DNA of 51,673 nucleotides, from contig SGZE01000004.1 in NCBI GenBank assembly GCA_004214015.1, positions 1-51,673 of the forward strand. Direction: 5' to 3'. Made by a program: the position numbers and the translations under genes. The notes under the pieces are model-generated. The model did no database searches, had not been told where the DNA came from, and saw nothing but the letters and a program-made list of their open reading frames with translations. The first letter of the stretch is position 1. The number at the start of each line of letters is the position of its first letter. Shown one piece after another: positions 1 to 6,663 of this stretch. The stretch is from Flavobacteriales bacterium. Its GTDB lineage: Bacteria; Bacteroidota; Bacteroidia; Flavobacteriales; Flavobacteriaceae.

Positions 1-2
1 AT

Positions 3-494
3 GGAGATCTAAACACATCTATTATTAAAACACACCTTGGAAGAACTATTATGGTACAATGGGATGAAACCAGTCCAAGACCTTATACAAGATTAAATCT
101 AATTCAAGGAACTAAAGGTATACTTGCGGGAGGACCAACTAGAGCAGCTTTTGATGATGGATTTGAGAATTTTACAGCAGATGCTCATCAATGGATAAAG
201 GATGATGGAATTAAAAGGTTATATGAAAAATATGATCATCCTCTTTATAAAAGATTAAATAATAAAACTAAAGATTCAGGTCATGGGGGAATGGATGGAA
301 TTATGATGTATAGAATAGTTGAATGCCTTCAAAACGGAACTCCGTTAGATCAAAATTTATATGAGGGATGTGCTTGGAGTGCATTAATAGAACTTACCTC
401 AAATTCTGTTAATAATAATGGCGAGCCTCAAGAATTTCCTGATTTTACAAGAGGAAACTGGGTTAACACTAAACCTTTTGATATTATCTCTTAA
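3..494 (+). CDS. C-terminal part of GH109-like / Gfo-Idh-MocA family glycosidase-oxidoreductase (5' truncated by window edge)
   Basis: Frame is open from base 3 upstream of the listed ATG (GDLNTSIIKTHLGRTIMVQWDETSPRPYTRLN...); GHGGMDG...YEGCAWSALIELTSNSVNNNG resembles GH109-type proteins. Confidence 0.75.
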   Translation, partial: GDLNTSIIKTHLGRTIMVQWDETSPRPYTRLNLIQGTKGILAGGPTRAAFDDGFENFTADAHQWIKDDGIKRLYEKYDHPLYKRLNNKTKDSGHGGMDGIMMYRIVECLQNGTPLDQNLYEGCAWSALIELTSNSVNNNGEPQEFPDFTRGNWVNTKPFDIIS

Positions 495-3533: not shown

Positions 3534-4069
3534 ATTATAAGGTAAGAATCCAAAAAAATAAAGATTTTCAAATTTTAGAAAATAATATGCCTATTGTAAA
3601 GGGTTCAAAACCTAAGTGGTACTCTAGTGAGATATTATTTTTCCTTAATAATAGAACTTTTCAAATTAAAAAGAAAAGTTTTTGGAAAAGTGTACACGAG
3701 ATAACTGCTAGTGGTAAAAAAGTTGGAGATATATTTATTAGAGGATTCAAAAAACCATTAGGAAATTTTATTCAGATTTATGAAAATAATTCCTTTAAAG
3801 ATGAGTTTTCTATGACTAGTACTTCAAAGAGTATATGGAGCTCAGAGAAAACTTATTCTTTATTTAACAAGGATAATGAAATTTTAAAAATTAATTATTC
3901 ATGGAAAAAACATTCATGGATAAAGTATACTGAGGAGATTTCAGTTGATAGTTTTAATACTCAAGGAGACTCACCCGAGTTAATTGTTTATTCTCTATTT
4001 TTGATGAGGTTAATTCAGCAACAAGAAGCTGCAGCTAACAGTGGAGGAGGTGCTATGATTTATGGTTAG
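3530..4069 (+). CDS. Hypothetical protein, possibly Tubby/LURP-like fold
   Basis: Beta-rich pattern (FQIKKKSFWKSVHEI..GKKVGDIF) and ATGA overlap with preceding gene; family assignment weak. Confidence 0.5.
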   Translation: MNYKVRIQKNKDFQILENNMPIVKGSKPKWYSSEILFFLNNRTFQIKKKSFWKSVHEITASGKKVGDIFIRGFKKPLGNFIQIYENNSFKDEFSMTSTSKSIWSSEKTYSLFNKDNEILKINYSWKKHSWIKYTEEISVDSFNTQGDSPELIVYSLFLMRLIQQQEAAANSGGGAMIYG

Positions 4070-4610: not shown

Positions 4611-5369
4611 ATGCCAATTCAAAAATTTTCAAAAGAAAAACAAGCTACAGGTAACTTTAATTATGGGGAAATATTAGAGAATAAACCTATTGGCTTTCCT
4701 CAAGATGGGGGTGAATTAAAACCTTACTCAAATCTGTTTTATTGGGCACATGCCTGGGCTCCAGACAAAGATAGTACTATTGGTCTGCACCCTCATAGAG
4801 GGTTTGAAATATGCAGCTTTGTTCTCAGAGGAGAAATTGAACATTATGATACTTTACTTGATAAATGGATTACTTTAAGTGAAGGAGATGTTCAGGTTAT
4901 TAAAGCTGGAAAAGGTATCTCACATTCCGAAAAATTAAAATCTGGTTCAGAAATTTTTCAAATTTGGTTTGATCCTAATATTCAAGAATCTTTATACATT
5001 AATGCTAGTTATAATGATTTTAAGTCTAAAGAATTCCTTTTGGAATCTTATGCTGGAGTTGAAAAAACAACTATTTCTAATGAAATGAATCAGATTGACT
5101 TAGACTCTGATGGGATTCAAATATTTCAATACAGTTTTAAAGATGGAATACATGACCATTCAATAAATGATCTTTTTTATCATTCTATATTTATTTTGTC
5201 AGGAACCTTAAATATAGAAGATCAAGTATTCTCTAAAGGAGATTTTATTATAATTGATAGTGAAAAAAAAATACAGTTATCCGCAAAGAATAACTGTAAA
5301 ATTTTTGAAATAATTTCACCTATTAAACCTCCGTATAAAACATACGCAGAAGTTCATAATGTTAATTAA
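4611..5369 (+). CDS. Pirin family protein
   Basis: GLHPHRGFEICSFVLRGEIEHYDT...GDVQVIKAGKGISHSE pirin cupin motif. Confidence 0.9.
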   Translation: MPIQKFSKEKQATGNFNYGEILENKPIGFPQDGGELKPYSNLFYWAHAWAPDKDSTIGLHPHRGFEICSFVLRGEIEHYDTLLDKWITLSEGDVQVIKAGKGISHSEKLKSGSEIFQIWFDPNIQESLYINASYNDFKSKEFLLESYAGVEKTTISNEMNQIDLDSDGIQIFQYSFKDGIHDHSINDLFYHSIFILSGTLNIEDQVFSKGDFIIIDSEKKIQLSAKNNCKIFEIISPIKPPYKTYAEVHNVN

Positions 5370-5787
5370 CTATTACAAGCTTTAGGTTTCTTTCCTTGAA
5401 CATTTCAAATAGTTCTTCAACAGACTCCTCAGATTGCATTGAAACTCTTATAAAACCTTCACCAAAGCTTAGGTATGCAGATGTGCTGTTGTCTGAATTA
5501 AGAAATACTTGAGGTAATTGACTCCATCTACTTGGACTTCCATCATCATATGTTCTTTCAATGTAAGCATTTATGGATCCATTTTCGTAGACCTCTTGAG
5601 TTATTTGAGATACCTCTATTTCAAAGTTAGCATATTGCATATCTTCTGATATAGTATCTGGCTCTGAAGGAACTTTTAGAGTAATTACTTCGTTAGTTGA
5701 GCCATTTTCAATTACATCAGATGAACCATTAATAGTACAACCGATGATAATTAAGGATAATGATAGTATGTAAAAAAAGTTTTTCAT
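5362..5787 (-). CDS. Hypothetical lipoprotein
   Basis: Signal peptide with lipobox LIIIGCTI; 3' end overlaps the convergent pirin gene by 8 nt. Confidence 0.6.
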   Translation of the reverse strand: MKNFFYILSLSLIIIGCTINGSSDVIENGSTNEVITLKVPSEPDTISEDMQYANFEIEVSQITQEVYENGSINAYIERTYDDGSPSRWSQLPQVFLNSDNSTSAYLSFGEGFIRVSMQSEESVEELFEMFKERNLKLVIVN

Positions 5788-5814
5788 AATAGTTTAAGTT
5801 AGATTTATAAATTA

Positions 5815-5848
5815 AGAAAGCCTGACTCACAAGTGAATCAGGCTTTCT
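5815..5848 (-). terminator. Strong hairpin, probable intrinsic terminator of a minus-strand transcript
   Basis: AGAAAGCCTGA-CTCACAAGTGAA-TCAGGCTTTCT; near-perfect arms, followed on the minus strand by TTAATTT. Confidence 0.6.
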
Positions 5849-6012
5849 AATTCTTTTAACACGATTGGAGTTTTCCAAATAGCAAATAATTTGTTTGCTT
5901 TTTAATGTTTAAAGATTTTACAATTTATATTTAAACTCGCGCTTAAAATTGGAAGTTAATTTTTCTTCCGTTTCTAATTGTTTTATAAAAGTATAAATCT
6001 ATTTTACAAAAA

Positions 6013-6020
6013 CAAATTTA
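6013..6020 (-). promoter_or_regulatory. Candidate -7 element (TAAATTTG on minus strand)
   Basis: Match to TAnnTTTG; no ORF begins shortly downstream; -33 element not clear. Confidence 0.3.
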
Positions 6021-6079
6021 AACTTTAAATTGTTAATAACTTTTAGTAATACATTGATATTCAGTGTATTAAAAAAAAC

Positions 6080-6145
6080 CTAGCAATTACAACATGTACA
6101 ATTACATGATTTTGTGCATTCACAACTCTTACAATTACAATCCAT
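6080..6145 (-). CDS. Cysteine-rich 21-aa peptide, metallothionein-like (MDCNCKSCECTKSCNCTCCNC)
   Basis: ATG (minus, 6145) to TAG (6080), 9 Cys in 21 aa with CxC/CC spacing; below the ORF-track length cutoff. Confidence 0.5.
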   Translation of the reverse strand: MDCNCKSCECTKSCNCTCCNC

Positions 6146-6173
6146 ATTTATAATTTTATTTAAGTTAAAGAAA

Positions 6174-6533
6174 TTAATCGAAAACAACATCCTTATAATA
6201 ATTTTCTAGAGCTTTTTTATATGCAACAACAAACTGATAAAACCTATATTCTTTTAGGTTACCATATCGGTTAAATTCATTATAAGTTTCAAATTGATAT
6301 TTTTTTAATCTTGTATCAAGTATACTTTGAATCTTTTTGACCCTTTTAAAAACTAGTTTTCGAGTTGAATTATTGTGTAAATCAGATTGATATTTATTGA
6401 TTATAATCTTTATTTCCTTGGGAGTTAGTTCCGTATGTTTTTTTGGATTACTCCAATTTAATTTATACTCACTATATAGCCATTTATATTCTTTATACAA
6501 ACCATTTAAGAAACAGGCCAGAAATATATTCAT
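6174..6533 (-). CDS. Hypothetical protein, no recognised family
   Basis: 119-aa ORF, basic/aromatic-rich composition, no antisense competitor; stop lies 28 nt upstream of the Cys-rich ORF. Confidence 0.5.
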   Translation of the reverse strand: MNIFLACFLNGLYKEYKWLYSEYKLNWSNPKKHTELTPKEIKIIINKYQSDLHNNSTRKLVFKRVKKIQSILDTRLKKYQFETYNEFNRYGNLKEYRFYQFVVAYKKALENYYKDVVFD

Positions 6534-6577: not shown

Positions 6578-6650
6578 GGGCAATTAGTTCAACTGAATAG
6601 AACAGAAGATTACGGCTCTTCAGATGGGGGTTTGAGTCCTCCATTGCCCT
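6578..6650 (+). tRNA. tRNA-Arg (anticodon ACG)
   Basis: Full cloverleaf: acceptor GGGCAAT/ATTGCCC, D-stem GTTC/GAAC, anticodon stem GAAGA/TCTTC with loop TTACGGC, T-stem GGGGG/CCTCC with loop TTTGAGT; CCA not encoded. Confidence 0.88.
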
Positions 6651-6663
6651 CAAATATTTTATT

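Follow-up and report, generated by a model that had tools for sequence, protein, structure and literature searches.

Bacterial metallothioneins of the SmtA/BmtA/PmtA type carry nine or so cysteines, with an N-terminal CxCxxCxC motif in SmtA, and copper metallothioneins of the Neurospora crassa type comprise about 25 residues with 7 Cys. CxC and CC thiolates, mostly small polar spacers and an essential absence of aromatics are the hallmark of peptides that form metal thiolate clusters. Structurally, bacterial metallothioneins contain a zinc-finger-like fold, and in animal metallothioneins the beta-type domains, with nine Cys, hold three divalent ions in an M3Cys9 cluster (PMC10612145). Here, we analyzed a flavobacterial window, that is the whole stretch of 51,673 nucleotides, in which an earlier note had pointed out an uncalled, metallothionein-like micropeptide of 21 residues, for which it knew of no described bacterial equivalent this small. 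The open-access literature likewise yielded no 21-aa bacterial metallothionein, no phage metallothionein and no paper pairing phage cargo with a metallothionein; an unnamed example in subscription papers or small-ORF catalogues is still possible.

Inspection of the sequence reproduced the ORF exactly as described, in coordinates, strand, length and its nine Cys among 21 residues, together with the 28-nt spacer separating it from a 119-aa ORF (Table 1). Translation of MDCNCKSCECTKSCNCTCCNC begins, on the minus strand, with the ATG at position 6145, and the stop codon TAG occupies 6082-6080. The 119-aa ORF had no significant match in Pfam, PHROG or NCBIfam and is possibly co-transcribed with the micropeptide, though it is not required. 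The micropeptide may also have its own promoter, as the leader of some orthologues contains a motif resembling the Bacteroidota -7 element (TAAATTG or TAACTTT type), which is weak support and inference only.

Table 1. Features at the micropeptide locus and tRNA genes beside its bacterial copies; positions are those of the window unless another contig is named.
Feature	Position	Strand	Basis or remark
Micropeptide gene, 21 codons + TAG, MDCNCKSCECTKSCNCTCCNC, CxCxxCxCxxxCxCxCCxC	6080..6145	-	Sequence, 18 syntenic orthologues, selection pattern, viral homologues
AT-rich 28-nt leader/spacer 5' of the micropeptide ATG	6146..6173	-	By-eye reading of the alignment
119-aa ORF, function unknown, directly upstream of the micropeptide	6174..6533	-	Present at 12/18 genus loci
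Structured non-coding stretch (predicted), ending in a strong hairpin	about 5998-5809	-	After AAAGTTATTAACAATTT
tRNA-Arg beside the micropeptide, MED-G11	6578-6651		
tRNA-Val beside the micropeptide, G474	L400 about 5304-5379		
Apparent 3' end of a tRNA before the tuf/secE/nusG region, G028	L401 about 1-110		

Conservation was assessed in 25 genomes of the genus, MED-G11 type marine Flavobacteriaceae including the window's own genome (806 kb, 61% complete), by searching with a nine-Cys DNA pattern that left all other positions free and allowed up to three mismatches. True matches were found in 18 genomes, all at zero mismatches. In every one of these orthologues, the ORF has 21 codons, the nine Cys keep the same spacing and the stop comes directly after the ninth; 17 have an ATG two codons ahead of the first Cys, with ATA in the remaining one. 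The latter (genome G003, L023 about 4021-4023) keeps the rest of the peptide intact, and its ATA is possibly a non-canonical start or a sequencing error. Over codons 1-21, the 18 peptides are all different (ATA counted), and their alignment contains zero indels within the coding sequence, while gaps are plentiful immediately before and after it. The comparison of synonymous with nonsynonymous change that the earlier note had proposed showed the cysteines to be unchanged: across the 18 loci, the mean pairwise difference in Cys codons was 0.000 at positions 1 and 2 and 0.36 at position 3, against 0.32 and 0.50, respectively, in the non-Cys codons of the micropeptide, and TGT and TGC are mixed at all nine Cys sites (114:48). 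With the first two positions of the Cys codons invariant, the third positions free and no indels, the alignment shows that the frame is translated and that purifying selection maintains its 21 codons and the nine cysteines at their fixed spacing. Spacer residues are nearly all small, polar or charged, and there are no aromatics apart from Tyr2 in one species. According to the earlier note, a frameshift, a stop or the loss of Cys in close relatives would have refuted the gene; none of these occurred in the 18 syntenic homologues, the sole blemish being the one ATA. Its suggestion of a real gene missed by ORF calling thus holds, with the ORF conserved in 18/25 genomes, and by these comparative data the micropeptide is a real, conserved and uncatalogued gene.

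Wherever the locus is sufficiently assembled, the micropeptide adjoins a Na/Ca exchanger gene with a tRNA-Arg, and on its other side lies a convergent pirin gene, which is the next protein gene at about half of the genus loci. A downstream lipoprotein is likewise present at only about half, and the 119-aa ORF is not universal either, so the micropeptide is independent of both. The seven genomes without micropeptide also lack the exchanger gene of this locus, the chromosome stretch being unassembled, and pirin turned up in just two of the seven, in both cases at the end of a contig. Consequently, no genome with an assembled locus is without the gene; that some of the seven have truly lost it remains possible. 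Contigs also break close to the micropeptide itself, 56-160 nt from the contig end in G018, G005 and G028, and pirin lies 454 nt from the end of contig C17 in G016. Such breaks may reflect strain variation or repeats. In G006 (L025), the tRNA-Arg is on the micropeptide's strand and not, as in the other loci checked, on the opposite one, indicating a local inversion.

The region just 3' of the micropeptide is conserved as well. In the 16 genus loci whose sequence extends far enough, a AAAGTTATTAACAATTT element follows the gene (window about 5809-6043, minus strand), accompanied in most of them by a TAnnTTTG-like motif. The structured stretch measures about 190 nt; in a second group, which has an extra domain, it reaches 326 nt. 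Two-sided changes occur at 19 of the 47 pairs predicted for the short form, and the consensus energy is -73 compared with -14 for column shuffles. No Rfam model matched above threshold. On the strength of this folding model, the stretch is likely an unannotated structured RNA gene.

Beyond the genus, carriers were rare among the bacterial genomes scanned. Within the family (400 genomes, 237 genera), the micropeptide was confined to this genus and genus g5 (G028, G474); a further listed match, in G430, was rejected as a TGT repeat, and the start-to-stop pattern read backwards as a control had no match in the same 400 genomes. A scan of 297 genomes of the phylum returned no carrier except the window's own genome. 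Among the matches listed in a scan of public genome contigs, most were poly-TGY repeats, and filtering left the MED-G11 genomes plus L146 and L163. Both copies in genus g5 have a stop codon overlapping the next start (TAAATG; L400 about 5250, L401 217-220), and each is coupled in this manner to a different small downstream ORF. Taken together, three bacterial contexts of the micropeptide were seen. All three sites adjoin tRNA genes, which differ in identity or place (Table 1), and by analogy this hints at insertion near tRNAs, as phages or islands do.

Pooled nine-Cys pattern searches identified the micropeptide in at least 168 IMG/VR contigs, representing at least 107 distinct core peptides with the consensus MKCNCKxCxCGTSCxCxCCxC. 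Because the standard pattern itself fixes the cysteines, we ran further searches in which some of them were left free. With Cys18, 19 and 21 unconstrained, all three were retained in 75/75 distinct viral peptides; with Cys3, 5 and 8 unconstrained, 51 of 52 retained them. Allowing alternative spacings in phages recovered only near-canonical variants (Cys16-to-His, short tails) and unrelated Cys-rich frames. One such variant (L425) has His, another metal ligand, in place of Cys16, one phage (L194) encodes a 36-aa extended form with an extra CxCxxCxC unit, and on two contigs (L187, L361) the micropeptide is in frame with the upstream phage ORF. Outside the cysteines, the viral peptides show strong preferences only for Gly11 and Ser13; position 7 is often Val or Ile, and no aromatics are among the common residues of any column.

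The viral copies meet the expectation for phage cargo, namely a location between phage genes on contigs with hallmark genes. Gene clusters shared by the carrier contigs match terminase, portal protein, DNA primase, exonuclease, thymidylate kinase and dehydrogenase, and at least four contexts were distinguished: before the dehydrogenase cluster, between clusters 8 and 9, before a primase-exonuclease block, and after cluster 24. In view of these and the three bacterial contexts, the micropeptide does not depend on particular neighbours. The micropeptide sits in tight gene strings of T4-like phages, with the upstream ORF ending within -11 to +43 nt of the assumed ATG in 60 of 72 viral contigs, and the nearest downstream genes vary. 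Often found 3' of it, after a gap of a little more than 100 nt, is the dehydrogenase (phrog_12409; L249 and 27 other viral contigs, cluster 0), distant relatives of which are annotated in Campylobacter phages. Among the nucleotide relatives is Flavobacterium phage immuto, at 65-70% across terminase or primase blocks. This phage possesses a T4-like Gp20 and has the same primase-exonuclease block without the micropeptide. The carrier phages are T4-like where they could be typed, which does not cover every contig. Their hosts are probably Bacteroidota, an inference drawn from the relatedness to immuto and from a phage-like contig (L163) with one micropeptide copy that had been assigned to a Flavobacteriaceae MAG. 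When five deposited phage records were scanned directly with the pattern, no micropeptide came to light; a match with three mismatches in immuto was rejected as not being of this peptide type. A tblastn search of the 21-aa peptide against named phages also gave no match, a null result that the low-complexity filter renders uninformative. The identical architecture of phage and host copies suggests horizontal exchange in a direction that remains unresolved, and common descent rests on this architecture alone because the copies are too short for a tree.

Known families did not account for the peptide. None of the 18 genus orthologues matched any Pfam family up to E=10, no NCBIfam or PDB match was found for the micropeptide, and the consensus phage peptide hit no PHROG family. 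The PF02069 profile was positive in the Synechococcus elongatus control and in 0/25 of the genus genomes, most of which are incomplete.

In composition, the micropeptide passes the test for a metallothionein, with 9/21 Cys, CxC and CC motifs and almost no aromatics, and the criterion that the cysteines be under purifying selection is met, too. We therefore have good, if not complete, confidence that it is a genuine 21-residue micro-metallothionein for soft metals (Zn/Cu/Cd), with metal binding, expression and a benefit to phages all being inferred. The metallothionein-like character proposed in the earlier note thereby gains support from Cys conservation in 18 orthologues, while its metal-binding role is still an inference. 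Without a dedicated search, no metal transporter or metal regulator was noticed next to the gene. Nine thiolates could enclose roughly three divalent ions, Zn or Cd, in an M3Cys9 cluster as in the beta domain of animal metallothioneins, or else some six Cu(I). For the bacterium, such a peptide would serve to buffer or detoxify soft metals (Zn, Cu, Cd); phages would carry it as a very small cargo gene for buffering or capturing metal while they infect, and it might shield their replication enzymes or salvage metal from host proteins that have been degraded.

We also lean, with more reserve, towards a broader reading in which these peptides form a new mobile micro-metallothionein family that many T4-like phages of marine Bacteroidota have as cargo and that has become fixed in some hosts. 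They would perhaps be the smallest gene-encoded metallothioneins, lytic phages would gain a peptide that buffers or captures metal, and viral infection would be linked to trace-metal handling in the ocean. Neither PHROGs nor the literature searched contains a phage metallothionein family, and usual gene-calling thresholds exclude genes of 21 codons, with the result that a widespread class would consistently escape notice. Should the peptide bind metal, it would represent a minimal natural metallothionein accessible by peptide synthesis (MDCNCKSCECTKSCNCTCCNC, MKCNCKVCNCGTSCDCTCCNC) and suggest that phages manipulate or protect against Zn or Cu in infection. Its very simple DNA signature lends itself to metagenome and metatranscriptome searches.

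Several other explanations were weighed against the same data. That the ORF arose by chance from a local DNA repeat is conceivable from the window itself, in which CAATTACA occurs three times in frame, at 6084, 6099 and 6132 as recorded in the earlier note, with offsets of 15, 33 and 48, each divisible by 3. In the alignment, however, this repeat stems from repeated TGT-AAT-TGT codons in the window's species and is not conserved in relatives, and it was set aside as the origin of the ORF for that reason. Moreover, 40 first-order Markov replicas of the window (GC 29.2%) yielded 0/78,710 short ORFs with more than 6 Cys, which argues against chance, and the ORF is kept, with synonymous Cys-codon change, in 18 species and in the viral contigs. 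The likelihood left to an accidental ORF is practically nil, and we regard it as refuted by conservation. A Cys-sensing leader peptide, in which ribosome speed over Cys codons controls a downstream operon, would be in keeping with a very short, Cys-rich ORF, with an AT-rich leader and with the overlapping TAAATG of genus g5, and poly-Cys leader ORFs have been described in mycobacteria. But an attenuator should have a constant co-directional gene downstream, and neither the genus loci nor the phages meet this expectation: where the convergent pirin comes next there is no co-directional protein gene, and in phages the downstream genes are varied. Codon counting, furthermore, needs neither exact Cys spacing nor the absence of indels. 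As many copies lack a co-directional downstream gene and the spacing is exact, we consider attenuation very unlikely.

Two further explanations accept a translated product and assign it another task. High thiol content would suit a redox buffer, since nine free Cys could scavenge oxidants, or the precursor of a modified peptide (RiPP); the latter, however, would be expected to show a leader sequence and adjacent modification enzymes, whereas the peptide begins one to three residues before the first Cys and no modification enzyme was recognized among the neighbours examined. We rate this pair of functions as exceedingly improbable. Instead of buffering metal, the peptide might fold compactly around it and work through a partner, for instance as a small regulator or as a phage factor for host takeover. 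Its place in tight T4-like gene strings fits such a role, and a review describes many small phage proteins whose targets lie in the host machinery (PMC11323111). Against it, the non-Cys positions drift in phages and bacteria, leaving little conserved surface apart from the viral Gly11 and Ser13, and the gene is also retained in bacterial chromosomes; we thus deem a partner-directed function unlikely.

As a micro-metallothionein, the peptide can be placed relative to several described systems. With SmtA, BmtA and PmtA (PF02069, Metallothio_Pro) it shares a Cys number of nine or so, with SmtA also the N-terminal CxCxxCxC motif, and it probably has soft-metal thiolate chemistry in common with them, but these proteins have about 50 or more residues (the Pfam model spans 51 positions). 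With 21 residues in total, and without that length or the zinc-finger-like segment, it does not meet the requirements for PF02069 membership and is, judging from its primary structure, metallothionein-like by composition and not a member of this family. Like the cargo genes and small ORFs of T4-like phages, for example those in the corresponding slot of Immutovirus, it is a small ORF between core genes that occupies one and the same slot in some relatives and is absent from it in others, and it differs from them in that its consensus belongs to no PHROG family. Fungal copper metallothioneins resemble it in being very short and having CxC repeats, but they are eukaryotic, have another spacing and fewer Cys, and no homology has been shown. 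From the beta domain of animal metallothioneins, finally, the micropeptide differs in its Cys spacing and in lacking a second domain, and no sequence relationship has been shown; nevertheless, both have nine Cys, CxC motifs and no aromatics.
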